Assembly: GCA_025917655.1 (NCBI GenBank)
Contig: CP084609.1
Span: forward strand, 496,001-560,000
From: Chlorella sorokiniana
Lineage: Eukaryota > Chlorophyta > Trebouxiophyceae > Chlorellales > Chlorellaceae
Direction: 5' to 3'
DNA: 64,000 bases
The notes under the pieces are model-generated. The model made no database searches. It saw only the letters and a list, made by a program, of their open reading frames with translations, and had not been told where the DNA came from. This document shows positions 20,101 through 47,100 of this stretch, piece after piece. Both the position numbers and the translations under genes were made by a program. Position 1 is the stretch's first letter, and every line of letters begins with the position of its first letter.

Positions 20101-23100
20101 AGGTGCATTACAGCTTCGCAGTTTGCTCAACAGTGCTTTCGATCTGGATCTGTCGGCTACTGTCGTGTATGACCACCCCTCGATTGCTGCTCTTGCAACT
20201 TTCATAGACTCCCAAATCAGTGCATCTAGTACCACCCCTCATCCAGAGCAACAGCCGTCTGAAGTGTTGGTCCATTTGAAGGCTAACAGGGTAGCAAGGG
20301 GTGGCATAACCACTGAGTCTGCGCGATTGCCTTCCCATGTTCATCATTCGCATGTCCTCAGTACATCCTCACCACTGGCACTTCAGCGCAGTCGGGGAAT
20401 GCCAGCGCTTCATACTGTCATGGTTGGCGCATCGGGAGGTACCCACATGCTGAGGAATCTGGAGGCTTGGCCGGCTTTTGGCAGCATATATTGCAGAACA
20501 CTGACGTGCCCACTGGCATACCCCTTCAGCGCTGGGATATTGAGCGGTACTATAGTGCCGAGGAGCCAGGACAGCCTGGCATGATGTATTTGCGTCTAGG
20601 ATCATTCATGTCAAACATTGATGATTTTGACAACGCTCTCTTCAGGTAACTCATTGTTCTGTTTGGTTCACATGTGTTGTGTGCTGATCGCAGTGTGCTG
20701 CTGTGTGCAGACTCAGCGTGGTAGAGGCGCTTGCAATGGAGCCGCAGGCTCGAATCTTGCTTGAGCAAACACTCGCTGCTTTTGTGGATGCGTGGGAACT
20801 GACAGGCAGCTTGCTTGACACAAAGACAGGTGCTGGGACTCCAGCGTGTGCTGCTGGCAGTGTGTGCACTATGGAAGCTTTACTCAAGGCTCACTGCTGC
20901 AGGTGTTTATGTTGGGTGCATGTACAGCGAGTACACGCAGCTTCAGCACAGCATGGGACTGCAGGTGTCGCCGAGCATAGTGACAAGCAATGGCCTTACT
21001 TATCTAGTTGGCCGTGTATCATATAGTTTTGGTTTGCAAGGTGCCATCCGCCTGGGATCACGCAAATGAATCGCTCAGACCTGGTCCAGGCGCGCATGCT
21101 TTGATCGCCCATTGGCACGCTTCCTCATTTGGCTTGCAGGCCCAAGCATCAGCACGGACACGGCATGCTCTTCCTCGTTGGTGTCTGCCCATCAAGCGCA
21201 TAAGGGCCTGCTCAGCCAAGAGACAGTGGCAGCGCTGGCAGGTGGTGTGAATACCATGCTGCTCCCCATCACCACCGCAAGCATCTGTGGTCTTGGGGCT
21301 TTGTCACCAACTGCAAGATGCAAGACATTTGATAAGTCAGCTGACGGCTATGGCCGGGGAGAGGGCGTGGGAGTTATTACGCTAGCGCCTCTGCAGTCAC
21401 AAGCGAGAGTAACAAAGGAGCCATTTGCGGTTATGTGTGGGTCAGCTGTAAATCAAGATGGGCGCAGCAGCAGTTTGACCGCGCCAAACGGGCCAAGTCA
21501 AACCGCGCTGGTCGTGGAGGCATATGCAACTGGCGCTGATACTGCTGGTAGTACTGGTTACATGTCCCTGCATGGAACAGGTGGGGCCTTGTGTAAGGAA
21601 CTTTTGCTGTCCTGATCCTCCTGTTGTACCTCATTCACATGCTGAAGCGCTGTGGAAGCAGGCACACCTCTGGGAGACCCAATTGAAGTGAACGCACTTG
21701 GTGAAGCACTCAAACTCCGCGGTTTTGTGAACGCATCGCTGGTGCTCGGGTCCATCAAATCCTGCTATGGGCACACAGAGGGCACTGCTGGAATGACAGG
21801 CATATTCCTAGCGTGTCAAGCACTACAACACCAAAACTGCCCTGCCGTGCTGAACCTTCGATGCGTAAATCCTTATGTGGAAGCAGCATTGCGTGATTGG
21901 CATACACCTGCAGCCCAAGGCAGGGTGCCAAGGCAAAGCAGCCCAGGCTGCTGTATGAAGTCCCAGATCATGGCGGGCTCCAGTTCTTTTGGCATGGGCG
22001 GCACAAACGCACATGCCACAATGACTGCAGTCACACCTTGGATATGTTGCAGTGACTGGACAGCCTGGCTTCGCAGCCGGTGAGCATTCGCCAGCATTTC
22101 CTTGTACGCTGTCTCCTGAGCAGTGTGCTCAATCTCCTGAGCAGTTTGCTCAAAATCCTGCGAACTGTTATCTTCAAATGGCGCATGTGCAGGTTTTGGC
22201 CGGCACCTAGATACCATCATCTTGCACACCGTGCTTCTCTTCATCGTGGTCGGCAGCGGTGCATGATTGAGGCACGGCTTTCTTCGCCCGGCCTCTTCCT
22301 CCTCTGGGACCATCAAGTGAGCCAGATGTCAGTGCTACCTGGAAGTGCCATGATGGACATGGCTGTCTCAAATGGACATGCACTGACACAACGGGCGCGT
22401 CCAAGTGGAGCCAGGGAGCCAACATTGGTTCTAACATCGTGTGTCATCCAAGCTCCTGTTCTTCTGAGCATATCCATGGCAGCACTGCTCCATATAGACA
22501 TCAGCTTGACAGAGGGTAGCTTTGCGATTCAAGATCTCACAAGTCGAGCAGCGCAGACTCATATGTCTGGCCGCTGCAGTGCTGTATGGATCAAGGAAAG
22601 GCCTGATCAGGCTTCGCAAGTCCTGTCAGCAGCCAAGCATTCTTTGACCAAGGACCAAAGGCCAGTGTTCTTGGCCTCTGTGAATGATCATTTGCAACAG
22701 CAGGCTCATAACCACACGGAGTGCATAGCAAACATGTTTCTTGCAACACAGACACGTACTGATGGCCATTGCTGTCATCCAGCCATCATGGACGGCTGCC
22801 TGCACCTCGCCACTTCTTTCCTGCGGCCACACAGCAAAAGGGCATCACTGGCAGTGCCGGTTGGCATGCGCTCCATGGTGGCGGAGCATGTTGAAAGTTT
22901 GTGGTGCAAGCAGAGTTTTTCTGCAAGCTGCCGCATGATGAGCTTAGCAGACGAACAAAAGAGCTACGAGAGCAATCACCTGGTGCTTGGTCCGTCTCAG
23001 ACAACGTGCGCGCCCGCAGCCAGCATCGCTGGCTTACAAGCTCGCGCAGCAGAACACATGATGGACACTCTCGGGTCAGTATCAGCCAAGCAGCGCAAAT

Positions 23101-26100
23101 TCGTTTTGGTACAAGGTGAAAGGCAAGGTGCCCCCGTTCAGCAAGAGCCTTTAATGTTGTATCACATAGTTTGGGAGCAGCCTGCATGGCAGGTCAGTCT
23201 AGCGGCAAGAGCGAACGGCGTCCGCAAGCTGATGCAATATTGGCTGCAGCGAGCTTCTCAAGTTCGGTGGCTGCCCAAGTAGTCAGCATACCCACCAAAG
23301 GCAGAGATGCTGCATTACCCCTTGGACAGTTGTTGAACCACTTTCAGCAGATTGCAGTGAAGAAGGTGATGCCGGACTTTAAAGTTTCAATATCTACGAC
23401 TGGCGTGGTATTACCTTCACGCTGCTTGCTCGCGGCTAATGGAAGCTCAGCTTCTGCGGGATCTTGGGGTATGCTGCGCGTTGCTGCCAGTGAGGTATCA
23501 AATGCCAAGTGGGGTATTGTTGATCGAGATTACGCCTCGGGCATGGGGCATTCAATGACAGATGCCACGGATGTGTATGGGTCTGTACAGAGCCACAACG
23601 TGGCTTTGCAGCCTATGCTTTACCCAGTGCGCCGACACACTTCTCAGCGCTCATCACACCGCTTGGCACTCCCAAGTGGAACCGTGCTTGTTACCGGGGG
23701 CCTTGGAGGTAGGTGCCACGACCATGCGCGTACCACCTGTGAAAGTGCTGTTGGTGATGTTCTTACACTCACACCAGATGAACTTTGGTGATGGCAGCAC
23801 TGGTGCACACCCCATGTCTGCAGGGATAGGCAATCTTGTCAGTAAATGGTTGGGAAACCAAGGTGGAGTGGAGTTGTTGCTCATCAGCCGTGCTGGACTG
23901 TCTAGTAGGGATGTGCTGCACTTGCGGGAGGCCCTCTTACCCGCAACAATTCTCCAGGGCGACACGTCCATTGCGCATGAAGCTGCAGCAGCTGTGCAAC
24001 GCGCCGGCATGAAGCAGCTGGTAGCCATCCTTCATGCTGGCGGTCTTCTGCAGGATGGCATGTTGGTGACACAGAGCGTAGGATCTCTGCGCAGCGTATG
24101 GGCTCCTAAACTGTGTTTTGTAGGGTCCACAGCCGCTAGTGCAAGGCGCCATACAGTGCAGCTTGTAGGCTTGTTCTCCTCAGTATCATCTTTCCTTGGA
24201 ACTGTGGGGCAAGTGAACTATGCAGCTGCCAACAATGCCTTGAATCACTGGGCAGAAGTTCTTCACCAAAATGGTGTTCAAGGTGAATGGATGGTGGCAG
24301 CAACTCGTTTGTATCGACTGGTCCCACCCTGCTTGCGTGCAAAAGCCAAACCTCAGTGCAGTGCACAGATTGATCAAGCCTGCCATACATTGGTCACCAA
24401 TGCCTGCAGGCAGCAGTATACTTTGGGGAGCTTGGGCAAACATCGGCATGACCTCCGGCAACAGGCTTGTGACAGCACGAGCAGAAAAGGCTGGACTCGG
24501 GCTGGTGGTTGCCACGCAGGGTCTTCAAGTGCTGCAAGGGCTGCTGTGCAACAGCTTGAGCGCCCGTCACGCTCAGGCATGCTTTGCAGCTGTGTGTTTG
24601 GGGCTCATGCGCTGCTGGGCCACCATCAATTTTGCTTTTGACATACGAGTTGACATCTGTTCATGACAGCGTCAACAAATGTGGCTGCTCTGCAGGGAAT
24701 TGCCAGCCCATTCAACTTCCATAAGCTGCTGGGAAACGTGAAAACCGTGCCTTATGTGTTCTCCTATGGGGCATCAGCCTCTCGAAGACCCAGCACTGGA
24801 GGAGTACCTGGGCGCTTTACGCAACTCCACGAAGACGTTGGCATCCAGGTTGCGGACGCTGCGGCTGTAAAGAAGCAAGTTGCTGCCCAGGTTCATTCGA
24901 TTGTTGGCGTCCAGGTTTGTCGTCTCGCATCCCAGACATGCAGCCTTTCGCTGCAGGCAACATTTTCAGGGCTTATGTCTGCAGGTTTCAGACACACAGC
25001 CGCTACTTGAGGCAGGGTTGGACTCCTTATCTGCAGTCGAGCTGCACCGTGTGCTCTCATCCACATTCAATCTGGAGATTGCTGCAACTGCGATTTTCAA
25101 TTACCCAACTATCAGCGAACTGGCAACTTATGTGTTTGAGCAGCTGCAGCAAATAGCAGCCTCTGAAGGGCATTCAGTGACGGTCAGCCCCCAAATGTGC
25201 CTGTTTCAGGACATCATACCATAGCCAGGTTTGAGGAAGAGATCTTAGGAGTTGTTGCCAGTATAATGGGTAGGCAGCCCATGCTTTCAGAGCCTTTAAT
25301 GGAGGCTGGCCTTGACAGCCTGGCAGCTGTGGAACTTCACCAAGCTTTGGAGCATCGTTTTGGGCAAGATCTGCCAAGCACAGTAATATTTGATCACCCT
25401 ACAGTGGCTGCTTTGGCAAGGCTTGTTGCTGTGCTGGTGGAACGGGCTGGACCCGTGCCATCTGCAAGCAGCGGATTTGCAATAGATGCTGGACTAGCGT
25501 CTCAGATGGAGAATGGCCCACGCAAGCCTGTCACTCACGTATTGGCCCTGTCCTGTCGGTTTCCCAAGCCTGCTGATGGGGCCGACAGGTTTTGGGCAGC
25601 GGCGATGCATGGTAATGACGTATCCCAACTGGTACCTCTTGCCCGCTGGGATCTCAACCTATATTATGAGCCAAGGGCCGCTTCTGGCAAGATGTACATG
25701 CGGTTTGGAATGTTTGTAAATGACATAGAGAATTTTGACCAAAAGGTGCCATGCGCACGGTGTCAACGGCCCTGACGTACTACAGCCTCGTGATCTCTTT
25801 ACTTGCTTGCCTCTTGCAGTTGTTCAGACTTTCTGTGTCGGAAGCACTGCCCATAGATCCACAGCAGCGAGTATTGTTAGAAGAATCATACTCTGCCCTG
25901 TACCACATCTACGCCAGGCGGGAAACCGCGACTTCAACTCTAACAGGCAAAGCTGTCGAGCACAAGCGCTCTTGCATTTGTTGACTGTGTAACTCACTTG
26001 TCAATTTACGTTGACGCAGGTGTCTACATTGGGTGCATGTATGCTGAGTATGCGCATCTGCTGCTGGAAGCTGGGATGGCAGTCTCAGCCGGCACAGCAA

Positions 26101-29100
26101 CGGGCAATTCGCTGTCGTTCATGGTCGGGCGCCTCTCGTACACTTTCGGTCTGTCAGGTGAAATTATACAATCACACCCATGCTTGTGTCCGGCTGCAGC
26201 ATCTGCGAACTTGTCTGTAGACATGCTGTCAAGGTATCAATGGCTTGCCACACTGCCGCAGGACCCTGCATTAGCACAGACACTGCATGTTCGTCTTCAT
26301 TAGTAGCAGTGCACCTGGCACACAGGGGTATGCTCGCGCGCGATGCTTCCGGAGCTCTTGCTGGTGGTGCAAATGCTTTGTTGCTTCCTGTCACCTCAGT
26401 TGCGATATGCCAGCTGCAGGTGATGGAAGACAGCATGTGTGCATGTTCCCTGTGCACTGGCAAAGATCAAGCCTAAAATACAGTCACCATTATTTGTTTT
26501 TGCAGGCACTGTCGACGGTTGGGCGCTGCAGAACCTTTGATGTGCTTGGAGATGGTTACGGGCGTGGGGAAGGTTTCTCGGTTGTATACTTGTCACATTC
26601 CAGCGACGGCAGCATCAAAGAAGTTGCTGTTCAAGGCAGCGCAGTGAATCAAGACGGGCAGAGCAGCAGTTTGACAGCCCCAAACGGGCCCAGCCAGACA
26701 CAACTTATGCTGGCGGCCCTGCAAGAGTGCTTGCAGCCCCCTGAGAGCCTCACATTTGTGGCAACCCATGGGACAGGAACGCAGCTGGGGGATCCCATTG
26801 AAGTTGGTGCTGCTGTCGAAGCTGTACGGGGACCCACAGGCGCAACTGCAGCACCCCTTACTCTTTGCGCACTTAAGCCGTACTACGGACATACAGAAGG
26901 TGCAGCAGGTGTTGCTGGCTTTCTGGCAGCTGTGCAAGCATCCAGACAGCTGAACGCCAATCCTTCTTTACACCTACGTTTCCTTAATCCCTACGTCCAA
27001 GCTGCCACAAGCCACAGCCGCTTAGGCGGTGCTTGTCCTGTTCAAATTCCTAGACAGCCTCAGGCTGCCCAGCTGCAGGACACATTGTCCGGCACCAGCT
27101 CTTTTGGAATGAGTGGTGTGAATGCACATGCACTTGTGACTTCTACAGCTTGGCAAGGTTCTCAGATTCGAAGCAGTGTCCAAGGAGGCTATCTTGTCAT
27201 GGATCGCCAGCGGCTGTGGCCTGTGCCCCTTCAACACAACCTTCTCTGTGCAATACGCACGGCAGCGGCACAGCAAACAGCGACATTTAGTTGTGTACTT
27301 ACCCACCCACTGGTTGCGCCAGTGCATGATTTGCAAATTGGGTCACAGGCTGTGATTGCTGTCGGAGCTGCTATGGAATTCATGGCTGCAGCCGTGGCCA
27401 GCCTGAGTGTGGGTTCTACAAGGCGAGCGTTAATAAACATACTATTCAACACGCCCATCCATTGTGCATCTGACTCGGTGATGAACTGCAGCATAAACCT
27501 TAGAACTGGCTGTGCCAGGTTGGGAAATGCTGCCGAGGCAAGCCTGGAACCAGCCACACAAAGAACGAGCAACCTAACAAGCGCACTTCATGGAAGGGCC
27601 CTGCGCCAGATGGGCTACTTTTTAGGCCCTTGCAAATGCAATCGCATGGCAGCATTGCAACGATGGCAGCATGCGACCATCAAGCTTCCTGCAACAATGG
27701 CCGGTACACCTATGTTCAAGCTGCCATCAGCTTGTTGAGCGTGCCTTGCCAGTCAAGGCTGCGTGCATGCAAAGCCTACACGCGAGACGACCTTAACTGT
27801 CCGCCAGCGTCCACCACAAACCATTCAAAGGGCCTAGCGCTGCTAGGACAGGCCAGCACGACTGCGTGTGGCTTGTATGAGGTGGACTGCCATGGTGAAG
27901 AACCAGTTCTCCCTGACAGGGTTCCTGCCCAGTCGCCGGCGTGGGAGCTTTTGTGGCAGCCCTATGAAGCAGAGCCTGCATTATGTTGCATAAGCAGGAG
28001 CTATATGCTTATAAGCTCGCGGGTGTGTAGACTTAGCAGTTTATGCAGACTGGAAATGAACTCTGCGCCGCTTTCAGCCTTGAACGCGGTTTGGAACGGC
28101 GTCAGCGACAACTTTGCCTGCCACAGCAGAGTCGATGGAAGGTCAGCCCCGGACCTCTTCTTTGGGACGGAGGCGCACCTCGTTATGCTGGTCCAGATCC
28201 TGCAACCTCGCTCTCGGTGCCTTTTTGTTCACAACCTGCGCTGCCTCACCGACACTGCACTTGCGTTAATCCTGTACCGCACCACAGCCAGAGTGTCTGA
28301 TCTCCAGCTTTCCCTCGTGACCACGGACAGTCACAAAAGCATCGGTAGCTTTGAGAACGTCAGCGTTTGCGAAACAGCCTTTTTGAGGGGTGAGAACAAG
28401 GAGTTCATGTCTGACCAGAGGGCAAGCTTGCCTGTGGCATGGATAGCAACTATGTTGGTGGTTATGCAGGACTTGCCCGCACTTTATTTATGGAAGCCAG
28501 GACAAGCTATTTGACCAGCATTGATTTGAGTCTGGCAAGTCGTGAAGCTTTGCCAGCCACAGTCCTCGCAGCCGCCACTGACCAGCCTTGCAGATATGAG
28601 ATTTCAGTTCGTGGTGGTCGATTGTACAAGTCAACAATGCTTTCTCGAGGGCTCAGGGTCCGGGCAAGGCAGTCCAGACTGAACAGTGCCTTTGTTTCGG
28701 GAGGAAGCCAGGTGCGAATGGTTGAGGATGGCGAGCCAAGTTGCCATGTTACCCCAGCCAGAAGGCTTCCACTTGCTTGTGATGCAGGGTTTGGGCCTTG
28801 AACATGGCCAGCAATGTGTGGATCGAGGTTGCCACCTCCTTGTGCTGACCTCCCGAAGTGGCAGCGTACATAAGGACGTTCTCAGCAGGCTCGCTAGAAC
28901 TGGGGGCACCGTCTTTGCCCTTAAAGCAGATTCAAGCTTTACACATCTGATAGCACAAGTGGTTGAATGGACCAGGGGTGCACTGCCATGCATTGATCAC
29001 TATGCGCATGCAGCTGGAGCTTCAGGATTTGCCATGCTTGCGGACATGGATCGTGCCGAGTTTCATCGCGTGGCTGCTACCAAGGTGAGTGGGGTGGCAG

Positions 29101-32100
29101 CACAACAGTCCACACTGTGGTTCCAACCCGCCTGAATGTTATCTGCAGATTGCCACCGTTGCTGCATTTCAACGAGCCGCAATGCCGTTGCAATCACAGC
29201 TAGCATTTTCGTCAGCATCAGCAGTTTGGAGCCAAGCTGGTGGCGCACATTATTCTTCTGGCAACGCGTTTTTGGATGCCTTTTCAAATCAGTGTCAGGC
29301 CGGTGGTCTGCCCTGCACTGCTATCCAATATGGACCGTTTGCGCACACCGGCATGGCCGCCTCACACACTCGGGAGCTTGAATTGCTTGGGTTGAGGGGT
29401 CTTCATCCAGACCAGGTGGGCAAGTATCCTTGAGCAGATGCTGGGGACTCCTATTACGTGTTTCCTTGTCCGTACTCCGTAGAACACTTGTTGAGAGCCA
29501 GCCAGGTCCTCCCCATGCAGATTACATGCTCGAGCCAGGCTGCTGGTGCTGCAAGCCAGCTATTGTATGTTAGAGCAAGTGTCACCCGCTTCTCCAAAAT
29601 CTACTCTTCGAAAGGAAGGTGGAGTCTGCTTGATGGCGCATTGTTGGTTCCGCAAACTTACGAGGAAGGCATTTGCGCCCAGAATGTGAGCCACGCAGCG
29701 GGGTTACACAAGATTACAGAATTGCCCGACTTGGCGAACAAGCGCTGCGTCACAAGGCACAGCCTTCATGAGGTGGAACAGGAGGTCAATGCTGCGCTTG
29801 CCAGTGTCCTGGGCGTAAGCGTGGAAGGTAAGTCATTGGCTTAAGGCTGAGATGGATGTCCTGTTGAATCTGTGATGTTATGTGATGTGTGATGTGATGC
29901 GTGCAGAGATTGTAGATGGGTCCTCTGGATTGTTCGACAGCCTTACTGCTGTTGAGTTTTCAAATTTACTAAGCGACACATTTGGCTTGAAACTTCCAAG
30001 CACGCTGGTTTTCGATTACCCATCTCCATCCTCCATGACCGCATACGTGCATGACCTGCTCAGGGTGCATGCAAATGACAATCATGCCCTCGTCGCAGCG
30101 GGAGGGCATGATTGGAACATCAACAACCAGGCGGACCCGGCCCTTTTTAATCCCCGTGTTGATATTGTCACTGCTAATGACGACAGCACGCATTTGGCCA
30201 ATCTTCTATTCGCAAATCGCCTTCCTCAAGAATACAAGAACTGCAACAGTGTCTGGCAGGGTGGTGACAGCATTTCCATCACTCCATTCAACAGATGGGA
30301 TGTTGATCAGGCGTTCCAGGCGAGTCCCCACATGAAGCTCTCCAAGCAGATTGCCCTGCGGGCGCAAAAACTCGCAGCTGAAGTACGACATGTGGCAAGC
30401 TTGACTGCCTTTTGCATGATTTGCAGTTTGGCATGTCCCGGATGCATGCTCGCTATGGGGGCTTCATGTTGGGGGTGGAACTCTTTGACACCTCTACCTT
30501 TGGTATTTCTGGGGCTGAAGCGGAGATCATGGATCCACAGCAGCGTGTGTTGTTGGAGGTAGGTTTGTTTTGCCACGAAAACGACTTTCCTTCAACTTGA
30601 CATTGACAAGCAGTATTGTTGTGCAGGTCGCATGGGAAGTTGTTGTCCAGGGCGGCATGTCACCAACTAGTGGGGCCTCTGCGACACAATGTTCAGTACA
30701 TGTTGGTATTCAACAGATGGAGTACACACGACTGGTGGGAACGCACTTTAGGTCCGTCAGCCCATTCTCAGGCAAGCTTGCTCATAGCAACTGACCAAGC
30801 TGCCATTATGCCAAGGACTCAAACTGCTTGCTCAGTCTGTCTGACAAATCTGTCTGCCTTGCCTGCAGCCACTGGAGGGAGCTTTTCGGTTGCTGCAGGT
30901 CGCTTGTCCTTCTCCTTTGGCTTTAGGGGACCCGCTGTGAGCATTGATACTGCATGTTCTTCAGCTTTAGTGGCAATACATTACGGCTATCTTGGTTTGC
31001 AAGATGCACACACGTCTCTAGCTGCTGGCGTTAACATGATGTTATCAGTCACTACAACTGCGGCTGCACAGTCAGCAGGTATGCTGTCCCAAGATGGACG
31101 CTGCAAAACGATGGACGCACTGGCAGATGGCTATGTGCGTGCGGAGGCATGCACTGCTATCCTGATGGAGGTCTCTTCGTTGTATAATTCCCACGCTGTT
31201 TACCTGCAAGCCACATACACCAATCAAGATGGCCGTAGCAGCAGCCTTACAACTCCCAATGGTCCAAGCCAGCAAGCAGTTATACGAGGGGCCCTAACTG
31301 CGGGGGGTCCACGGTCGTAATGTTGACATGTTGGAAATGCATGGCACAGGTAAGCCTCTCCTTCTGTGTGACGCACTGTGTGGCACAAACACCCTCAGGT
31401 TCTTGATTGCTTTCACTGGTTTGTATTTCAGGCACAGCGCTCGGCGATCCAATTGAGCTTGGGGCTGCACTGCCAATATTACAAGCTGGAGGCCTGAAGC
31501 TGTCTGCAGCAAAGTCTCGCGTTGGGCACAGCGAGCCTGTGGCAGGAGCTGTGGGAATGACACATGGAGCCAGAATGCTTGCTTACCAAACCACGAGCGC
31601 ACTCTTACATTTGCGCCACTTGAATCCCATGCTGGATGCCCTGGCCCATTCGCATATGAATGACGATCATGCTACAGCAGTCAGTCGGCAAGACAGCCCT
31701 GGAACACAAAGTCGTGGCAAATTCACAGCATGCAGCGTCAGCTCGTTTGCATTCCAGGGCACGAACGCACATGCCATTGTTGCGAGCACTGGCGGGCACT
31801 CGGGCAGCCGACTGACCCACACCTGGCAATGGCAGCGACAGCGTTATTGGGTATACCCCCAACTGTACTTGCTTGCAGCCTGGACAACAAGGGCAGTGAA
31901 AGCTACTGTTGCAGCCAAGATTGAAAGCTCTCTTTCATCCCCTAGCTGTTCGCTTCTTCGGGAGCATCAAGTGCAGGGGATGGCGCTTATGCCTGGGGCC
32001 GCAATGTTAGAGGCAGCATTTGCCGCCGGAACTCTTCTATCGAGCCCTTCCAGCAGCATTTCTACGGGTGCTGGGTCACCACCCTTCTTGAAAGCCATCC

Positions 32101-35100
32101 TTGGGGTGTCTATCCTTGCACCGATGTTGTTGCCGACCCTTGAAAACCAAGACACACAGGCCATCGTCTCAACGGCGCTAGACTTGAGGACGGGGAAGGC
32201 TACATTGCAAGGCCTGCACTCCTCTTCGCCAGCACAGGCACACCTGACCGGAAAGTTTGCACGGTTTAATGCAATTTCTGTAGTCAACGGGACTGTGCAG
32301 CTGGGAACAGTCCTTGCTTTTGCACAAGTGCCATTATCTTGTGCAGTTGGTTTGGGGATGATACCCGCAAGAACCCGCGCAGGCACCGCAGCATCCATAG
32401 CAGTCGTTCATCAGCAGCACAGACTCCCACCCCACGCACACCACGTTGATCCCATAGTCAGTGACAATGCAACACAGGTGATGCCCAGGTCCAGAGGCTT
32501 AGCCTGTCCTGTTACGTGTGTCAATTATAACACTTCATCACAATGCAAAATGGCCAAGTCATCTGCTCTAGTCCGCCCCAGGTTGGATCTGCTTTCTGGA
32601 TACCAGTGGATGTGGCAGACACCCGTGTGCCTGCTGCACTAGAGGCGTTCGCTATAGCATCTAACCCAAGCGATGCTTGCGACAAATGGCTCGCCCGTGG
32701 AGCCCTCTGCTCTGGAGACTCGAGCAAATCACTCCTGTGCAGCTACCAAGCGAGTCCTGCATCGCCATCAAGTGCAACTGTTTTGGACATGAAAAACATG
32801 CTGTTCAAAACCACAAATAGCAGCTGGCAAGTCAAGAGTCCACCTCATCAGATTGGGAGACAATCGCGCATTTTTCACCAGGAGCACCAGCCAACTCATT
32901 ATGGGGTCCAATGGCGGGCAGATCGTGGCTTAACTCTGATGCGAGCAAGCAGAACCAGCCCTTTCTCCGGGCAAACGATCACTTGGAGCTTGGCTCACAG
33001 CATCAGACTGTGTGCACAGACCATGCCAGGATTACATGCCTTGCATGCAGTAGCAAGCAGCCTGGAGGTGCTGCAGACCTCACGAGCGTCGCGCCTACTT
33101 CTCACATCCATGTTGCCGGACCCCAGGCTGCAGACCAGCAGCGCCGCTCATGGAGCGCTTGCTTCCCTGATGAAAGTAGCCGCACGGGAGAACATGGAAC
33201 GCAGCTTTGCAAGCATCGCGTATGACAAGCTGAGCGGCAAAATTGTAGACGGTATTGAATCGGATGTGTTTGGTATAGTTGTAGCAGGTAAGTCGTAACA
33301 GTTGTGCCTGGATGTTCATTGTCAACCTGACATCTTATTATCTCTTTGACTGCTGGGCAGGTCACACATCCTTGAAACCTTGCATGGTTACCATGCCAGG
33401 CATGCGGCTGCTTGAACATGGCGAGCGCAGTGAGCAAGGTAGCCGCTTGTTAGTGCATGGCGTGCTGGTTAGCGGCGGGCTCGGGAGCGTTGGTTACCTG
33501 GCTGCCAACTGGATGGCGAGAGCGTGCCCTGGCACGTCCATTTGGCTCATCGGACGGAATGGCCGCCTCAAGCACGACAGGCCTCTTGTACCATTTGTGC
33601 ATGGTTGCCTACGCTTCACAGCTAGAGATTTGGCTGTGGCTGCGGATACAGAAGACCTTGTTCATTGTGCTGCCAGCAGCGCCCAATTATGCACCAGCAT
33701 TCTGCATGCTGGAGCCAGCCTGCACGATGCATTGTTAACACAGCAGACAGCCCGTACGCTGCGCATCACATTTGCTCCCAAAGCGCAAGCAATTTTGCGC
33801 ATGGCATCCGCTGCAGCGCGCATGCCTTTGCGAGGTTCGATACTCTTTAGTTCCCTTTCAGCCGAATTAGGAACTCCTGGGCAAAGTAACTATGCTGCTG
33901 CCAATGGAGCGTTGGAAGGGATTGCTGAGCATCTTTCCAGGGCTGGGCTACAGAGCACCAGCGTAATCTGGGGCCCATGGGCGCTGGGCATGGCACTCAG
34001 CAACTCTCGGGCAACGGAACAATTTTATAAGGCGGGTCTGGAGCTTTTCACAGGTGATAGCCGTGACAGTGTAAGCAGTTTCAGCTACAGAAGTGCTAAA
34101 GATTGTTATCTACAAAAAACTAATGCAGGAGTGTCCGGCACACGCTTGCTCTACTCAGCGATGTCTCTGATGGCACAGCATTCCGCAGTGATTATTGCAA
34201 ATATTCAATGGTCACGGCTGCTATCACAGTCCACAGGACTGCCTCCATTTTTCGCTGTGATGAAAGAAAACGAGGACATGCAAAGTGGACAGGCCCCCAG
34301 AAAGGCCTCAAAAGCATCTATCATTTCTGCAGACAGCGGGATACAAGGTGGCAGCCACAGAAGGATGAGGGATGCTGCAGAGATTAAACACCTGGTCTCT
34401 GGGTCTCTGCGCAGCGTATGGGCTCCTAAACTGTGTTTTGTAGGGTCCACAGCCGCTAGTGCAAGGCGCCATACAGTGCAGCTTGTAGGCTTGTTCTCCT
34501 CAGTATCATCTTTCCTTGGAACTGTGGGGCAAGTGAACTATGCAGCTGCCAACAATGCCTTGAATCACTGGGCAGAAGTTCTTCACCAAAATGGTGTTCA
34601 AGGTGAATGGATGGTGGCAGCAACTCGTTTGTATCGACTGGTCCCACCCTGCTTGCGTGCAAAAGCCAAACCTCAGTGCAGTGCACAGATTGATCAAGCC
34701 TGCCATACATTGGTCACCAATGCCTGCAGGCAGCAGTATACTTTGGGGAGCTTGGGCAAACATCGGCATGACCTCCGGCAACAGGCTTGTGACAGCACGA
34801 GCAGAAAAGGCTGGACTCGGGCTGGTGGTTGCCACGCAGGGTCTTCAAGTGCTGCAAGGGCTGCTGTGCAACAGCTTGAGCGCCCGTCACGCTCAGGCAT
34901 GCTTTGCAGCTGTGTGTTTGGGGCTCATGCGCTGCTGGGCCACCATCAATTTTGCTTTTGACATACGAGTTGACATCTGTTCATGACAGCGTCAACAAAT
35001 GTGGCTGCTCTGCAGGGAATTGCCAGCCCATTCAACTTCCATAAGCTGCTGGGAAACGTGAAAACCGTGCCTTATGTGTTCTCCTATGGGGCATCAGCCT

Positions 35101-38100
35101 CTCGAAGACCCAGCACTGGAGGAGTACCTGGGCGCTTTACGCAACTCCACGAAGACGTTGGCATCCAGGTTGCGGACGCTGCGGCTGTAAAGAAGCAAGT
35201 TGCTGCCCAGGTTCATTCGATTGTTGGCGTCCAGGTTTGTCGTCTCGCATCCCAGACATGCAGCCTTTCGCTGCAGGCAACATTTTCAGGGCTTATGTCT
35301 GCAGGTTTCAGACACACAGCCGCTACTTGAGGCAGGGTTGGACTCCTTATCTGCAGTCGAGCTGCACCGTGTGCTCTCATCCACATTCAATCTGGAGATT
35401 GCTGCAACTGCGATTTTCAATTACCCAACTATCAGCGAACTGGCAACTTATGTGTTTGAGCAGCTGCAGCAAATAGCAGCCTCTGAAGGGCATTCAGTGA
35501 CGGTCAGCCCCCAAATGTGCCTGTTTCAGGACATCATACCATAGCCAGGTTTGAGGAAGAGATCTTAGGAGTTGTTGCCAGTATAATGGGTAGGCAGCCC
35601 ATGCTTTCAGAGCCTTTAATGGAGGCTGGCCTTGACAGCCTGGCAGCTGTGGAACTTCACCAAGCTTTGGAGCATCGTTTTGGGCAAGATCTGCCAAGCA
35701 CAGTAATATTTGATCACCCTACAGTGGCTGCTTTGGCAAGGCTTGTTGCTGTGCTGGTGGAACGGGCTGGACCCGTGCCATCTGCAAGCAGCGGATTTGC
35801 AATAGATGCTGGACTAGCGTCTCAGATGGAGAATGGCCCACGCAAGCCTGTCACTCACGTATTGGCCCTGTCCTGTCGGTTTCCCAAGCCTGCTGATGGG
35901 GCCGACAGGTTTTGGGCAGCGGCGATGCATGGTAATGACGTATCCCAACTGGTACCTCTTGCCCGCTGGGATCTCAACCTATATTATGAGCCAAGGGCCG
36001 CTTCTGGCAAGATGTACATGCGGTTTGGAATGTTTGTAAATGACATAGAGAATTTTGACCAAAAGGTGCCATGCGCACGGTGTCAACGGCCCTGACGTAC
36101 TACAGCCTCGTGATCTCTTTACTTGCTTGCCTCTTGCAGTTGTTCAGACTTTCTGTGTTGGAAGCACTGCCCATAGATCCACAGCAGCGAGTACTGTTAG
36201 AAGAGTCATACTCTGCCCTGTACCACATCTACGCCAGGCGGGAAACCGCGACTTCAACTCTAACAGGCAAAGCTGTCGAGCACAAGCGCTCTTGCATTTG
36301 TTGACTGTGTAACTCACTTGTCAATTTACGTTGACGCAGGTGTCTACATTGGGTGCATGTATGCTGAGTATGCGCATCTGCTGCTGGAAGCTGGGATGGC
36401 AGTCTCAGCCGGCACAGCAACGGGCAATTCGCTGTCGTTCATGGTCGGGCGCCTCTCGTACACTTTCGGTCTGTCAGGTGAAATTATACAATCACACCCA
36501 TGCTTGTGTCCGGCTGCAGCATCTGCGAACTTGTCTGTAGACATGCTGTCAAGGTATCAATGGCTTGCCACACTGCCGCAGGACCCTGCATTAGCACAGA
36601 CACTGCATGTTCGTCTTCATTAGTAGCAGTGCACCTGGCACACAGGGGTATGCTCGCGCGCGATGCTTCCGGAGCTCTTGCTGGTGGTGCAAATGCTTTG
36701 TTGCTTCCTGTCACCTCAGTTGCGATATGCCAGCTGCAGGTGATGGAAGACAGCATGTGTGCATGTTCCCTGTGCACTGGCAAAGATCAAGCCTAAAATA
36801 CAGTCACCATTATTTGTTTTTGCAGGCACTGTCGACGGTTGGGCGCTGCAGAACCTTTGATGTGCTTGGAGATGGTTACGGGCGTGGGGAAGGTTTCTCG
36901 GTTGTATACTTGTCACATTCCAGCGACGGCAGCATCAAAGAAGTTGCTGTTCAAGGCAGCGCAGTGAATCAAGACGGGCAGAGCAGCAGTTTGACAGCCC
37001 CAAACGGGCCCAGCCAGACACAACTTATGCTGGCGGCCCTGCAAGAGTGCTTGCAGCCCCCTGAGAGCCTCACATTTGTGGCAACCCATGGGACAGGAAC
37101 GCAGCTGGGGGATCCCATTGAAGTTGGTGCTGCTGTCGAAGCTGTACGGGGACCCACAGGCGCAACTGCAGCACCCCTTACTCTTTGCGCACTTAAGCCG
37201 TACTACGGACATACAGAAGGTGCAGCAGGTGTTGCTGGCTTTCTGGCAGCTGTGCAAGCATCCAGACAGCTGAACGCCAATCCTTCTTTACACCTACGTT
37301 TCCTTAATCCCTACGTCCAAGCTGCCACAAGCCACAGCCGCTTAGGCGGTGCTTGTCCTGTTCAAATTCCTAGACAGCCTCAGGCTGCCCAGCTGCAGGA
37401 CACATTGTCCGGCACCAGCTCTTTTGGAATGAGTGGTGTGAATGCACATGCACTTGTGACTTCTACAGCTTGGCAAGGTTCTCAGATTCGAAGCAGTGTC
37501 CAAGGAGGCTATCTTGTCATGGATCGCCAGCGGCTGTGGCCTGTGCCCCTTCAACACAACCTTCTCTGTGCAATACGCACGGCAGCGGCACAGCAAACAG
37601 CGACATTTAGTTGTGTACTTACCCACCCACTGGTTGCGCCAGTGCATGATTTGCAAATTGGGTCACAGGCTGTGATTGCTGTCGGAGCTGCTATGGAATT
37701 CATGGCTGCAGCCGTGGCCAGCCTGAGTGTGGGTTCTACAAGGCGAGCGTTAATAAACATACTATTCAACACGCCCATCCATTGTGCATCTGACTCGGTG
37801 ATGAACTGCAGCATAAACCTTAGAACTGGCTGTGCCAGGTTGGGAAATGCTGCCGAGGCAAGCCTGGAACCAGCCACACAAAGAACGAGCAACCTAACAA
37901 GCGCACTTCATGGAAGGGCCCTGCGCCAGATGGGCTACTTTTTTAGGCCCTTGCAAATGCAATCGCATGGCAGCATTGCAACGATGGCAGCATGCGACCA
38001 TCAAGCTTCCTGCAACAATGGCCGGTACACCTATGTTCAAGCTGCCATCAGCTTGTTGAGCGTGCCTTGCCAGTCAAGGCTGCGTGCATGCAAAGCCTAC

Positions 38101-41100
38101 ACGCGAGACGACCTTAACTGTCCGCCAGCGTCCACCACAAACCATTCAAAGGGCCTAGCGCTGCTAGGACAGGCCAGCACGACTGCGTGTGGCTTGTATG
38201 AGGTGGACTGCCATGGTGAAGAACCAGTTCTCCCTGACAGGGTTCCTGCCCAGTCGCCGGCGTGGGAGCTTTTGTGGCAGCCCTATGAAGCAGAGCCTGC
38301 ATTATGTTGCATAAGCAGGAGCTATATGCTTATAAGCTCGCGGGTGTGTAGACTTAGCAGTTTATGCAGACTGGAAATGAACTCTGCGCCGCTTTCAGCC
38401 TTGAACGCGGTTTGGAACGGCGTCAGCGACAACTTTGCCTGCCACAGCAGAGTCGATGGAAGGTCAGCCCCGGACCTCTTCTTTGGGACGGAGGCGCACC
38501 TCGTTATGCTGGTCCAGATCCTGCAACCTCGCTCTCGGTGCCTTTTTGTTCACAACCTGCGCTGCCTCACCGACACTGCACTTGCGTTAATCCTGTACCG
38601 CACCACAGCCAGAGTGTCTGATCTCCAGCTTTCCCTCGTGACCACGGACAGTCACAAAAGCATCGGTAGCTTTGAGAACGTCAGCGTTTGCGAAACAGCC
38701 TTTTGAGGGGTGAGAACAAGGAGTTCATGTCTGACCAGAGGGCAAGCTTGCCTGTGGCATGGATAGCAACTATGTTGGTGGTTATGCAGGACTTGCCCGC
38801 ACTTTATTTATGGAAGCCAGGACAAGCTATTTGACCAGCATTGATTTGAGTCTGGCAAGTCGTGAAGCTTTGCCAGCCACAGTCCTCGCAGCCGCCACTG
38901 ACCAGCCTTGCAGATATGAGATTTCAGTTCGTGGTGGTCGATTGTACAAGTCAACAATGCTTTCTCGAGGGCTCAGGGTCCGGGCAAGGCAGTCCAGACT
39001 GAACAGTGCCTTTGTTTCGGGAGGAAGCCAGGTGCGAATGGTTGAGGATGGCGAGCCAAGTTGCCATGTTACCCCAGCCAGAAGGCTTCCACTTGCTTGT
39101 GATGCAGGGTTTGGGCCTTGAACATGGCCAGCAATGTGTGGATCGAGGTTGCCACCTCCTTGTGCTGACCTCCCGAAGTGGCAGCGTACATAAGGACGTT
39201 CTCAGCAGGCTCGCTAGAACTGGGGGCACCGTCTTTGCCCTTAAAGCAGATTCAAGCTTTACACATCTGATAGCACAAGTGGTTGAATGGACCAGGGGTG
39301 CACTGCCATGCATTGATCACTATGCGCATGCAGCTGGAGCTTCAGGATTTGCCATGCTTGCGGACATGGATCGTGCCGAGTTTCATCGCGTGGCTGCTAC
39401 CAAGGTGAGTGGGGTGGCAGCACAACAGTCCACACTGTGGTTCCAACCCGCCTGAATGTTATCTGCAGATTGCCACCGTTGCTGCATTTCAACGAGCCGC
39501 AATGCCGTTGCAATCACAGCTAGCATTTTCGTCAGCATCAGCAGTTTGGAGCCAAGCTGGTGGCGCACATTATTCTTCTGGCAACGCGTTTTTGGATGCC
39601 TTTTCAAATCAGTGTCAGGCCGGTGGTCTGCCCTGCACTGCTATCCAATATGGACCGTTTGCGCACACCGGCATGGCCGCCTCACACACTCGGGAGCTTG
39701 AATTGCTTGGGTTGAGGGGTCTTCATCCAGACCAGGTGGGCAAGTATCCTTGAGCAGATGCTGGGGACTCCTATTACGTGTTTCCTTGTCCGTACTCCGT
39801 AGAACACTTGTTGAGAGCCAGCCAGGTCCTCCCCTTGCAGATTACATGCTCGAGCCAGGCTGCTGGTGCTGCAAGCCAGCTATTGTATGTTAGAGCAAGT
39901 GTCACCCGCTTCTCCAAAATCTACTCTTCGAAAGGAAGGTGGAGTCTGCTTGATGGCGCATTGTTGGTTCCGCAAACTTACGAGGAAGGCATTTGCGCCC
40001 AGAATGTGAGCCACGCAGCGGGGTTACACAAGATTACAGAATTGCCCGACTTGGCGAACAAGCGCTGCGTCACAAGGCACAGCCTTCATGAGGTGGAACA
40101 GGAGGTCAATGCTGCGCTTGCCAGTGTCCTGGGCGTAAGCGTGGAGGGTAAGTCATTGGCTTAAGGCTGAGATGGATGTCCTGTTGAATCTGTGATGTTA
40201 TGTGATGTGTGATGTGATGCGTGCAGAGATTGTAGATGGGTCCTCTGGATTGTTCGACAGCCTTACTGCTGTTGAGTTTTCAAATTTACTAAGCGACACA
40301 TTTGGCTTGAAACTTCCAAGCACGCTGGTTTTCGATTACCCATCTCCATCCTCCATGACCGCATACGTGCATGACCTGCTCAGGGTGCATGCAAATGACA
40401 ATCATGCCCTCGTCGCAGCGGGAGGGCATGATTGGAACATCAACAACCAGGCGGACCCGGTCCTTTTTAATCCCCGTGTTGATATTGTCACTGCTAATGA
40501 CGACAGCACGCATTTGGCCAATCTTCTATTCGCAAATCGCCTTCCTCAAGAATACAAGAACTGCAACAGTGTCTGGCAGGGTGGTGACAGCATTTCCATC
40601 ACTCCATTCAACAGATGGGATGTTGATCAGGCGTTCCAGGCGAGTCCCCACATGAAGCTCTCCAAGCAGATTGCCCTGCGGGCGCAAAAACTCGCAGCTG
40701 AAGTACGACATGTGGCAAGCTTGACTGCCTTTTGCATGATTTGCAGTTTGGCATGTCCCGGATGCATGCTCGCTATGGGGGCTTCATGTTGGGGGTGGAA
40801 CTCTTTGACACCTCTACCTTTGGTATTTCTGGGGCTGAAGCGGAGATCATGGATCCACAGCAGCGTGTGTTGTTGGAGGTAGGTTTGTTTTGCCACGAAA
40901 ACGACTTTCCTTCAACTTGACATTGACAAGCAGTATTGTTGTGCAGGTCGCATGGGAAGTTGTTGTCCAGGGCGGCATGTCACCAACTAGTGGGGCCTCT
41001 GCGACACAATGTTCAGTACATGTTGGTATTCAACAGATGGAGTACACACGACTGGTGGGAACGCACTTTAGGTCCGTCAGCCCATTCTCAGGCAAGCTTG

Positions 41101-44100
41101 CTCATAGCAACTGACCAAGCTGCCATTATGCCAAGGACTCAAACTGCTTGCTCAGTCTGTCTGACAAATCTGTCTGCCTTGCCTGCAGCCACTGGAGGGA
41201 GCTTTTCGGTTGCTGCAGGTCGCTTGTCCTTCTCCTTTGGCTTTAGGGGACCCGCTGTGAGCATTGATACTGCATGTTCTTCAGCTTTAGTGGCAATACA
41301 TTACGGCTATCTTGGTTTGCAAGATGCACACACGTCTCTAGCTGCTGGCGTTAACATGATGTTATCAGTCACTACAACTGCGGCTGCACAGTCAGCAGGT
41401 ATGCTGTCCCAAGATGGACGCTGCAAAACGATGGACGCACTGGCAGATGGCTATGTGCGTGCGGAGGCATGCACTGCTATCCTGATGGAGGTCTCTTCGT
41501 TGTATAATTCCCACGCTGTTTACCTGCAAGCCACATACACCAATCAAGATGGCCGTAGCAGCAGCCTTACAACTCCCAATGGTCCAAGCCAGCAAGCAGT
41601 TATACGAGGGGCCCTAACTGCGGGGGGGGTCCACGGTCGTAATGTTGACATGTTGGAAATGCATGGCACAGGTAAGCCTCTCCTTCTGTGTGACGCACTG
41701 TGTGGCACAAACACCCTCAGGTTCTTGATTGCTTTCACTGGTTTGTATTTCAGGCACAGCGCTCGGCGATCCAATTGAGCTTGGGGCTGCACTGCCAATA
41801 TTACAAGCTGGAGGCCTGAAGCTGTCTGCAGCAAAGTCTCGCGTTGGGCACAGCGAGCCTGTGGCAGGAGCTGTGGGAATGACACATGGAGCCAGAATGC
41901 TTGCTTACCAAACCACGAGCGCACTCTTACATTTGCGCCACTTGAATCCCATGCTGGATGCCCTGGCCCATTCGCATATGAATGACGATCATGCTACAGC
42001 AGTCAGTCGGCAAGACAGCCCTGGAACACAAAGTCGTGGCAAATTCACAGCATGCAGCGTCAGCTCGTTTGCATTCCAGGGCACGAACGCACATGCCATT
42101 GTTGCGAGCACTGGCGGGCACTCGGGCAGCCGACTGACCCACACCTGGCAATGGCAGCGACAGCGTTATTGGGTATACCCCCAACTGTACTTGCTTGCAG
42201 CCTGGACAACAAGGGCAGTGAAAGCTACTGTTGCAGCCAAGATTGAAAGCTCTCTTTCATCCCCTAGCTGTTCGCTTCTTCGGGAGCATCAAGTGCAGGG
42301 GATGGCGCTTATGCCTGGGGCCGCAATGTTAGAGGCAGCATTTGCCGCCGGAACTCTTCTATCGAGCCCTTCCAGCAGCATTTCTACGGGTGCTGGGTCA
42401 CCACCCTTCTTGAAAGCCATCCTTGGGGTGTCTATCCTTGCACCGATGTTGTTGCCGACCCTTGAAAACCAAGACACACAGGCCATCGTCTCAACGGCGC
42501 TAGACTTGAGGACGGGGAAGGCTACATTGCAAGGCCTGCACTCCTCTTCGCCAGCACAGGCACACCTGACCGGAAAGTTTGCACGGTTTAATGCAATTTC
42601 TGTAGTCAACGGGACTGTGCAGCTGGGAACAGTCCTTGCTTTTGCACAAGTGCCATTATCTTGTGCAGTTGGTTTGGGGATGATACCCGCAAGAACCCGC
42701 GCAGGCACCGCAGCATCCATAGCAGTCGTTCATCAGCAGCACAGACTCCCACCCCACGCACACCACGTTGATCCCATAGTCAGTGACAATGCAACACAGG
42801 TGATGCCCAGGTCCAGAGGCTTAGCCTGTCCTGTTACGTGTGTCAATTATAACACTTCATCACAATGCAAAATGGCCAAGTCATCTGCTCTAGTCCGCCC
42901 CAGGTTGGATCTGCTTTCTGGATACCAGTGGATGTGGCAGACACCCGTGTGCCTGCTGCACTAGAGGCGTTCGCTATAGCATCTAACCCAAGCGATGCTT
43001 GCGACAAATGGCTCGCCCGTGGAGCCCTCTGCTCTGGAGACTCGAGCAAATCACTCCTGTGCAGCTACCAAGCGAGTCCTGCATCGCCATCAAGTGCAAC
43101 TGTTTTGGACATGAAAAACATGCTGTTCAAAACCACAAATAGCAGCTGGCAAGTCAAGAGTCCACCTCATCAGATTGGGAGACAATCGCGCATTTTTCAC
43201 CAGGAGCACCAGCCAACTCATTATGGGGTCCAATGGCGGGCAGATCGTGGCTTAACTCTGATGCGAGCAAGCAGAACCAGCCCTTTCTCCGGGCAAACGA
43301 TCACTTGGAGCTTGGCTCACAGCATCAGACTGTGTGCACAGACCATGCCAGGATTACATGCCTTGCATGCAGTAGCAAGCAGCCTGGAGGTGCTGCAGAC
43401 CTCACGAGCGTCGCGCCTACTTCTCACATCCATGTTGCCGGACCCCAGGCTGCAGACCAGCAGCGCCGCTCATGGAGCGCTTGCTTCCCTGATGAAAGTA
43501 GCCGCACGGGAGAACATGGAACGCAGCTTTGCAAGCATCGCGTATGACAAGCTGAGCGGCAAAATTGTAGACGGTATTGAATCGGATGTGTTTGGTATAG
43601 TTGTAGCAGGTAAGTCGTAACAGTTGTGCCTGGATGTTCATTGTCAACCTGACATCTTATTATCTCTTTGACTGCTGGGCAGGTCACACATCCTTGAAAC
43701 CTTGCATGGTTACCATGCCAGGCATGCGGCTGCTTGAACATGGCGAGCGCAGTGAGCAAGGTAGCCGCTTGTTAGTGCATGGCGTGCTGGTTAGCGGCGG
43801 GCTCGGGAGCGTTGGTTACCTGGCTGCCAACTGGATGGCGAGGGCGTGCCCTGGCACGTCCATTTGGCTCATCGGACGGAATGGCCGCCTCAAGCACGAC
43901 AGGCCTCTTGTACCATTTGTGCATGGTTGCCTACGCTTCACAGCTAGAGATTTGGCTGTGGCTGCGGATACAGAAGACCTTGTTCATTGTGCTGCCAGCA
44001 GCGCCCAATTATGCACCAGCATTCTGCATGCTGGAGCCAGCCTGCACGATGCATTGTTAACACAGCAGACAGCCCGTACGCTGCGCATCACATTTGCTCC

Positions 44101-47100
44101 CAAAGCGCAAGCAATTTTGCGCATGGCATCCGCTGCAGCGCGCATGCCTTTGCGAGGTTCGATACTCTTTAGTTCCCTTTCAGCCGAATTAGGAACTCCT
44201 GGGCAAAGTAACTATGCTGCTGCCAATGGAGCGTTGGAAGGGATTGCTGAGCATCTTTCCAGGGCTGGGCTACAGAGCACCAGCGTAATCTGGGGCCCAT
44301 GGGCGCTGGGCATGGCACTCAGCAACTCTCGGGCAACGGAACAATTTTATAAGGCGGGTCTGGAGCTTTTCACAGGTGATAGCCGTGACAGTGTAAGCAG
44401 TTTCAGCTACAGAAGTGCTAAAGATTGTTATCTACAAAAAACTAATGCAGGAGTGTCCGGCACACGCTTGCTCTACTCAGCGATGTCTCTGATGGCACAG
44501 CATTCCGCAGTGATTATTGCAAATATTCAATGGTCACGGCTGCTATCACAGTCCACAGGACTGCCTCCATTTTTCGCTGTGATGAAAGAAAACGAGGACA
44601 TGCAAAGTGGACAGGCCCCCAGAAAGGCCTCAAAAGCATCTATCATTTCTGCAGACAGCGGGATACAAGGTGGCAGCCACAGAAGGATGAGGGATGCTGC
44701 AGAGATTAAACACCTGGTCTCTGGGGTTGCTCGAGGACTACTCGGTGAAGATGTGCCCCCTGATCAGCCGCTCATGGATGCCGGACTTGACTCACTAGGT
44801 GTGTTCCATGTAACGCGGCTCCCTGCCAACCCCGAACTTGGTTTCTTAATGTGTACACCTGAAATGCTTACCTAGAATGCCGTGCAGGAGCTGTTGAACT
44901 CCGAAACAGGCTTCAAATACGCACAGGTCTCGCTCTGCCCACAACATTGGCATTTGACTATCCATCAATCTCTGCTTTGAGTAATTTCTTGCTTTTAAAT
45001 CACACGATGAAAACTGAATCGACCAAGAATACCATCAACGCCATCGGTTTCACCGAGTTTCCCATGAACATCGATGAGGAAGTGATTGTCGGTGAGGTGC
45101 ACCGTTTGGTAGAGAGCTTGAGCGGGCTTGTACTAACTTCTGATCAGCCATTGATGCAAGCTGGCATCGACTCCCTAGGTGGGTTATGTGTGCGGTGTGA
45201 GGCTGGCAGGCACGATTTGATTAGCAAAAAAACTGATGAACGCAGGTGCTGTAGAGCTTGGGACTGCGCTTGCACAACGCTTTAACCTAGACCTCGCTTC
45301 TACAGTGGTATTTGACCATCCAACAATACAAGCGCTTGCGGTACACGTGAAACGTATGCTGTTGCACAATTTGCATTCGGGCTCGAGCACCGACATGATG
45401 TCTGGCGGTGTTCAACACAACAATTACTTCATGGATGATGATGGGCATCATCTGCACTTGCCGGTGACACATGTGGTGGGTGCATCCTCAATTTTTCCGG
45501 GAGACACACAAGGCAAGTTAACAAGGTCGTGTCCTCGGCTGTGTAATTACGTAAGGGCGTTTCTTTCACAGTTTACTATTGTGCTGAAGCTGAGGGCTTG
45601 CTGCAGGAGTTCCTGCCTTCTTCGAGGCCCTACTATTGGGAAACAACGTGCAGACCGAGGTGCCCATGCATCGATGGAACGTGGAGCCCCTGTACCATCC
45701 ATCACTCAACCCACCCAGCAAGGCGGTTTATGTTAGATTTGCAGCATTTTGTTCAGGTGTGCTTTTACGCAGTGATACAATACCTCGCAAACATCACAAA
45801 ACTGATGAATGTACCGTTCTGGGTCTTGCTGACCAGGTGTTTACCTCTTTGATAGAGAAGCATTCAAACTTACATCAAATGAAGCAGCTGCCATAGATCC
45901 TCAGCAACGAATGCTATTGGAGCTTACATTGCTGTCATGGCAGGAGGCAAGTTCAGCTTCTCCAAATGCCAGGCAGAGCACGGTTGGTGAGCACAAACAT
46001 GTTACATTTTTGGTGCTGAATCGATAATAACATTGACCTTGGTTGAGCATGATCGCTTATGACCATGCAGGCATGTATTGCGGTTGCATGTACACAGAGT
46101 ACAACACCTTGATCCTGTCACTTGGGCAGAGCTTACCTGCACAAGCTGTGATTGGGAGTGGCTTGAGCTATCTTACTGGACGCATGTCCTATATTTTTGG
46201 ATGTACAGGTGGGAAAAGATGAACAACTGCACTGCCTGCTTCGCATTGTAGTTATCAGTCATGAGGTCAATCTCGTTTCTTGCATTTGCTACATGGCTTG
46301 TTACATGCAATTGCTCTTCTACAAATTTTCACAACCTGTCTTTCCTTGAAGTGGGGTCTTCCGCTTGATGTTTCATGGGCCCCTAAGCGGAGGATAGGCC
46401 TCTGTGTACAATGCGAGGGGGAATAGGTTCCAAATTGAGTTGGCACACAACTGTGCAGGTCCATGTGTAAGCACCGACACAGCGTGTTCTTCATCATTGG
46501 TGGCCGGTCATCTTGCGCACAAGGGACTGTCATTGGGCGAATGCAATGATGCCGTTGTCGGTGGAAGTAATATCATGTTGCTTTCAGGGACGACAGCCGC
46601 AATCTGCTTGCTCCAGGTACCACCCATCACAGCGGTTGGAACATTCCTTGCAGCTTCTATAAGCCTATGTGCTGTCTGGTCTGGGTGCTGCAAAGTTCAA
46701 GCGCTTACACTCCTCCAAGCATTTGTGCATCCATGTGTCCAGGCTTTGTCCCCAGTTGGGCGATCCAAGACGCTGGAAGCTTCTGCAGATGGATATGGTC
46801 GCGCTGAAGGCGTTTCGTCTTTGGTTTTCACATGCAAAGCGCATCACAAGGTTGATCACCAAACATGTCGTGTATATGCAATGATTCAAGGCTCGTCCAC
46901 CAATCATGGAGGTCGCAGCAGTGGCATGACGGCCCCCAACGGGCCTGCGCAAACCTCTCTGATTCGTGGCGCAATGAAGGAGATTGGCGCGGTAAAGAGG
47001 AGGGTTTGCAGCCATAGTTTGCATGGCACTGGCACACCCTTGGGCGATCCCATTGAGATTGGCGCCCTGGGCAGAGCAGTATCAGGCAGTAATGAATCCT

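Follow-up and report, generated by a model that had tools for sequence, protein, structure and literature searches.

We describe a 10.3-kb tandem repeat inside a giant polyketide synthase (PKS) gene, lying in a window of 64,000 nucleotides (G000:C8:496001-560000, the whole stretch of DNA that was analysed), which we read, with a probability of about 0.6, as a real and young intragenic duplication made by non-homologous joining. We prefer this reading because the repeat is exact and gapless, an open reading frame (ORF) spans the new junction, both outer borders appear ancestral, and the two ends of the repeated unit are alike at seven of eight bases. What can be seen directly in the data is the repeat with its exact borders, a junction that keeps the frame, the set of domains, and the occurrence of each outer border in an independent protein. 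The two copies are arranged head to tail:

24084..34403, + strand: copy A of the tandem unit, 10,320 bases (self-BLASTN and alignment)
34404..44725, + strand: copy B of the tandem unit, 10,322 bases (self-BLASTN and alignment)

Self-BLASTN of the window gave one direct repeat of 10,326 columns at 99.88% identity, with introns included in the near-identity, and a 10-kb direct repeat at 99.9% is far beyond chance. An earlier note, made by eye from the sequence, had proposed these same coordinates together with seven substitutions and three homopolymer-length differences; alignment of A against B reproduced this description exactly and found no other differences. The substitutions fall at copy A positions 25839, 25874, 25885, 29515, 29826, 30141 and 33521; six of the seven are transitions, and three of them cluster in 47 bases (P = 0.002). 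Four are synonymous and three are not (4/7 against 0.34 expected for each, P = 0.19 in a selection test). The homopolymer differences (A/B) are T5/T6 at 27618/37939, T5/T4 at 28380/38700 and G6/G8 at 31301/41622. There is no letter N in the whole window. A query of 1,001 bases from the unit start found two copies only in the 38.8-Mb genome (2/2 candidates scored; the counts are lower bounds). Across 264 kb of contig C8 (the window plus the adjoining 200 kb on its left), just two other repeats reach 150 bp with an identity above 99%: an inverted one of 2.5 kb and a direct one of 946 bp.

The borders of the unit are unable to slide, with A at 24083 against G at 34403 on one side and G at 44726 against T at 34404 on the other; there is no microhomology at the borders, and the unit coordinates are therefore exact. 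Three features mark the joint and the right end of the unit:

34396..34411, + strand: new junction, with unit end TCTCTGGG against unit start TCTCTGCG
34404..34604, + strand: C-terminal stub of a ketoreductase (KR), repeated past the junction, the second KR stretch in ORF 33285-34958
44735..44812, + strand: start of the acyl carrier protein domain (ACP) after the unit, where the Pfam match begins at profile position 9 of 67

The joint has no shared base, and the 8-mers at unit end and unit start are alike at 7/8 positions, for which the chance is 0.0007 at the exact ends and 0.02 with 3 bases of freedom either way. This likeness hints that the event was guided by sequence and that the joint is not simply an arbitrary contig end. 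The junction is spanned by an open frame, 33285-34958, that is 558 codons long; an in-frame exon-exon joint would arise by chance in one case of three. The earlier proposal is supported in that the tandem lies inside one PKS gene, adds two ketosynthase (KS) domains and has an in-frame junction. Numbering domains by their module, the order across the junction is KR5, the start of an ACP, half a KR, two whole ACPs and then KS4 again, and the right border at 44725 falls three residues ahead of the Pfam match of the following ACP.

Both outer borders could be followed in proteins from other sources. At the left border, P0008, from another data set, is 78% identical (124/158 residues) and carries a KR that is intact across the border. 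At the right border, P0001, from JGI, is identical at 412/413 residues to the right-end ORF of copy B and continues into the ACP; at its single mismatch, copies A and B agree with each other. Because independent proteins run through each of them, both outer borders read as ancestral. The junction ORF, used as a query, had 7 matches, among which P0001 alone is close: it aligns to residue 378, five residues beyond the joint at 373, and then diverges, and its own KR aligns to the stub a second time. Of 142 proteins fetched, 6 cross the joint by at least 10 residues on both sides, all at 28-49% identity, and their ranges indicate ordinary KR alignments, not a KR with a further half KR behind it. 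JGI matches near 99% were absent for KS4 among the 120 matches listed and for the left border among 15. The contigs behind P0001 are probably too short to reach KS4 or the left border, and P0001 is therefore no evidence on copy number. Scans of IMG/VR with the right border, the junction and P0001 gave no matches, in a search from which records near the window's genome may be excluded, and a scan of prokaryote genomes with P0001 found four distant bacterial loci.

The domains that make up the unit were placed by Pfam matches and active-site motifs, and are given here in the order of copy A (DH, dehydratase):

23820..24284, + strand: KR of the third module; the left border cuts it near profile position 100 of 180 (interpolated)
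24985-25134 and 25239-25427, + strand: two consecutive ACPs of copy A (GxDSL motifs of copy B at 35335 and 35628)
25539..26976, + strand: KS of module 4 (KS4), copy A, active-site motif at 26279 (copy B motif at 36599)
28785..29343, + strand: KR of module 4 (KR4), copy A, by Pfam
29933..30049, + strand: ACP of module 4, copy A (copy B motif at 40250)
30406..31613, + strand: KS of module 5 (KS5), copy A, motif at 30946 (copy B at 41266)
31917..32174, + strand: N-terminal half of a DH (PF21089), module 5, copy A, by Pfam
33462..33983, + strand: complete KR of module 5 (KR5), copy A (copy B at 43784-44305)

The unit thus runs from half of the third KR through two ACPs, KS4, KR4, an ACP, KS5, the DH N-terminal half and KR5 to the linker that leads to the start of an ACP, and each unit holds two KS, two whole KR and three ACP domains. 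The picture of two complete modules in the order KS-DH-KR-ACP-KS-DH-KR, as first proposed, is not supported by this inventory: the unit starts inside a KR, ends at the start of an ACP and has three ACPs, and no DH was found between KS4 and KR4 (Pfam, E up to 0.01, three frames), where one had been claimed behind the first KS of the unit. By its domain order, the unit is best described as a rotated module pair with cuts inside domains. As a separate observation on the ACP at the right end, 66 bases at 89% identity are shared between the ACP serine motifs of two different modules (19535-19600 and 44739-44804).

How far the ten differences can serve to date the event depends on the quality of the consensus, and here each of the three indels breaks the frame in one copy. 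At the G run 31302-31307 in KS5, copy A goes out of frame and copy B continues into a conserved motif. Of the two T runs, the first puts copy A out of frame and the second copy B, and relatives (P0023, 86% identical, and P0024, 72%) continue in the frame that the other copy keeps. We considered whether the T-run difference at 27618 might be intronic and rejected this, as P0023 and P0024 continue straight through it and also past the second T run. Frame breaks occur elsewhere in the assembly as well: the plastid rbcL gene is split by one at a short A run (L032 1941-2060, C15). Under a rule that calls a break where two adjoining tblastn segments of one query are shifted by 1 or 2 bases in at least three queries, a second multimodular PKS on contig C1 has breaks at 10 places in 60 kb, with shifts of -1 prevailing at 9 of these, and a run of four or more identical bases was present at 6 of the 9 places looked up. 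The same rule gave one place in copy A, none in copy B and none in the 21.4 kb of this gene that lie outside the copies, where one more was supported by a single query. We also counted homopolymers in the same 264 kb of C8 (296001-560000) against five order-2 Markov sequences. For G/C runs of lengths 5, 6 and 7, 404, 33 and 9 were observed against 305, 74 and 18 expected, with an excess at length 8 (14 vs 5) and at 9 or more (11 vs 1); A/T runs lie nearer expectation (302, 58 and 17 observed vs 302, 75 and 22 expected at lengths 5, 6 and 7). A depletion at lengths 6-7 with a pile-up at 5 is what we would expect of homopolymer compression in a long-read consensus, which leaves the excess of the longest runs unexplained. 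PMC12007338 describes long-read errors as a cause of frameshifts and stops.

Because they break the frame, and in view of the rbcL break, the breaks of the C1 PKS and the depletion of G/C runs, the three indels are most likely residual consensus errors. As for the seven substitutions, they may be genuine, erroneous or some of each, and two truly identical copies could show the same differences, so that the A-B differences are unusable as a clock. With an assembly this prone to error, the duplication can therefore be neither dated nor separated with certainty from an artefact. If the 7 substitutions in 10.3 kb were all accepted as mutations, the rates of green algae, about 3e-10 to 1e-9 per site and generation, would translate them into some hundred thousand to a million generations, which is recent, and is not the moment of origin. 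The earlier description of a duplication caught almost at the moment it happened thus goes too far, the indels being best explained as consensus errors and the substitutions being indistinguishable between error and mutation.

Several observations weigh against a real and young duplication. The junction did not turn up in a second genome or strain, and no close relative of it was found among the 7 matches of the junction ORF, which leaves it without an independent sighting. As assembled, both copies are frame-broken; the three breaks confirmed by eye in the copies compare with none well supported in the 21.4 kb outside; and the assembly is error-prone overall, in rbcL, in the C1 PKS and in its G/C runs. 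The excess of breaks in the copies can reflect a poorer consensus there, as from an assembly fault. True repeats are likewise harder to polish, and the comparison is uneven, with close relatives available for only part of the unit. The explanation that these points favour is a false duplication, in which two consensus versions of one 10.3-kb segment, either haplotypes or error-laden versions, were laid end to end, so that the ten differences would be haplotype differences or consensus errors. It would account for the residual errors (the rbcL break at an A run, G/C runs of 6 and 7 depleted), for the fact that 3 of the 10 differences are homopolymer lengths that each break the frame in one copy, for more frame breaks in the copies than elsewhere in the gene, and for unit borders that lie away from domain borders. 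Both homotype and heterotype false duplications are documented in PMC9516828, which names as their signs half or very low depth, gaps between the copies, discordant pairs and one-copy k-mers. Gaps between copies are described there as a primary characteristic, and the present junction holds no gap letters; it joins open frame to open frame, in frame, with unit ends alike at 7/8 bases. Under the rule of at least three queries, moreover, breaks are not more frequent in the copies (1 place in 20.6 kb) than in the C1 PKS (10 in 60 kb), and the 264 kb of the contig hold no second direct repeat of like size and identity. On balance we regard a false duplication as unlikely, if a serious contender.

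A different objection concerns age rather than reality. An older real duplication could have been kept near-identical by gene conversion, in which case identity would say little about age. The cluster of three substitutions in 47 bases is of a kind that conversion tracts or their borders could leave, and conversion-like identity occurs in related settings: the two copies of a thioesterase repeat at the end of this gene do not differ over about 940 bases although the ACPs beside them are diverged, and modules of the C1 PKS share patches of 95-99% identity. The identity of copies A and B, however, is even across the 10.3 kb, in the introns as well, and breaks off sharply at borders that are not homologous, and an outside donor for the clustered sites was not found, the two copies themselves being the only 2 candidates. 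The variant in which the clustered substitutions were converted from another KS of the genome was dropped for the same reason (only two copies found among the best candidates). We consider upkeep by conversion improbable, and clearly more so than an assembly fault.

In the preferred reading, that of a real and young duplication, the assembly would be correct at the tandem, and two non-homologous points of the gene, the ACP start after the KR of module 5 and the middle of the KR of module 3, would have been joined by end joining or template switching. The resulting enzyme would gain two modules for chain extension, KS4-KR4 and KS5-DH-KR5, with an ACP behind each, and the half-KR stub at the joint would be a useless remnant. 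Both added KS domains are still followed by a KR and an ACP, and two more extension steps are therefore plausible if the stub is tolerated. The prediction of a chain two extension units longer holds as it was written only with a tolerated half-KR stub at the junction, and as assembled the frameshift of copy A in the second KS would end the protein. A fuller version of the preferred reading, which we put forward tentatively and at somewhat less than even odds, is that non-homologous joining inside domains, and not homologous exchange between modules, duplicated two modules of a giant eukaryotic PKS not long ago, and that the enzyme works with an in-frame half-KR scar. Were that the case, assembly lines would tolerate a crude joint, with trimming coming later. 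A real duplication would represent a raw first step in the growth of eukaryotic PKSs, in which the position of the break need not respect module or domain borders, and would provide a testable pair of products, before and after. If the tandem is an artefact, module counts of giant algal PKSs from unpolished long-read assemblies may be wrong.

The gene that carries the tandem was delineated from open frames, motifs, Pfam and tblastn matches; exons proposed by a purpose-built gene finder were implausible and were dropped. Its main landmarks, including the repeated end, are as follows:

11635..53050, + strand: PKS gene, approximate extent, from KS motifs and terminal thioesterase matches; ends and introns approximate
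12227, 17177, 21157, 26279, 30946, 36599, 41266 and 46476, + strand: eight KS active-site motifs
50333..51277, + strand: thioesterase-carrying direct repeat, first copy (self-BLASTN, Pfam)
52105..53050, + strand: thioesterase-carrying direct repeat, second copy (self-BLASTN, Pfam)

On the + strand, the gene has eight KS domains, KRs, DHs, ACPs and thioesterase matches at its end (Pfam and motifs). We treat the KS modules as parts of one multimodular gene, on the assumption of a single transcript. No integrated acyltransferase (AT; PF00698) was found in the three + frames of 1-34404 and 44726-54726 (Pfam, E up to 0.001 or 0.01), with stops read as X and copy B covered through its match to copy A rather than by a frame scan. 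A genome search with PF00698 gave 0 candidates for a free-standing AT; exon-split genes are invisible to this search, which also missed the fatty-acid malonyltransferase expected in any alga. The genome comprises 38.8 Mb in 15 contigs, of which C8 has 2.54 Mb. Contig C15 (117,793 bp) carries psbA and rbcL and represents the plastid genome, and the host is therefore a photosynthetic eukaryote and C8 nuclear; from the rbcL and psbT sequences we take it to be a green alga, and the PKS relatives point the same way. By its domain content, the gene accordingly looks like a green-algal type I PKS that is multimodular and AT-less (trans-AT type). The 39 matches to the KS C-terminal domain in the genome lie mostly at C1 4.16-4.22 Mb, at C2 19-70 kb and in the window, with the remainder on C3 (two), C5 (one) and C8 at 653 kb (one).

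Some further repeats were noted along the way. The thioesterase repeat has about 940 bases without a substitution, the ACPs ahead of its copies (50034 and 51944) are diverged, and it looks like conversion or a fresh thioesterase copy. The second multimodular PKS (G000:C1:4160001-4220000) has many patches of 85-99% DNA identity between modules, and at its local positions 29235-30264 three consecutive stretches are 93-97% alike. Elsewhere on C8, the 2.5-kb inverted repeat (G000:C8:368067-373252) has arms that are 99.56% identical and a spacer of about 170 bases; it may be genuine or may have arisen as a fold-back in the assembly. On this nuclear contig, G000:C8:364001-364271 also has two short minus-strand matches to the RuBisCO large subunit, which are possibly a plastid-derived insertion.

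Among bacterial modular PKSs, very high module identity at the mycolactone locus has reportedly been taken as recent duplication, and the present gene shares with such systems the very high identity between modules of one assembly line. The bacterial cases are intronless and cis-AT, and homologous exchange between modules is their usual reading; the present gene, unlike them, is eukaryotic, has introns and is AT-less. Nearer at hand, module duplication is described as a way in which algal PKSs grow, and near-identical neighbouring modules have been published (Shelest et al. 2015, PMC4661987): modules 1-3 of OluPKS3 are 89-98% alike overall, and 98-100% in KS and ACP, at the protein level. Like those chlorophyte PKSs, the gene described here is multimodular, very large and without an integrated AT, with neighbouring modules that are near-identical; it differs from what is set out there in a DNA identity of about 99.9% that includes introns, in a unit of two modules, and in that this unit begins within a KR and ends at an ACP start. 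With assembly false duplications, as PMC9516828 describes them, the tandem shares two almost identical copies close together, and it differs from them in being gapless. Among the open-licence papers found by searching, titles and abstract beginnings mention no DNA-identical, intron-inclusive two-module tandem with borders inside domains. The kind of event is already known, and it is the structure of its borders that is the unusual part.

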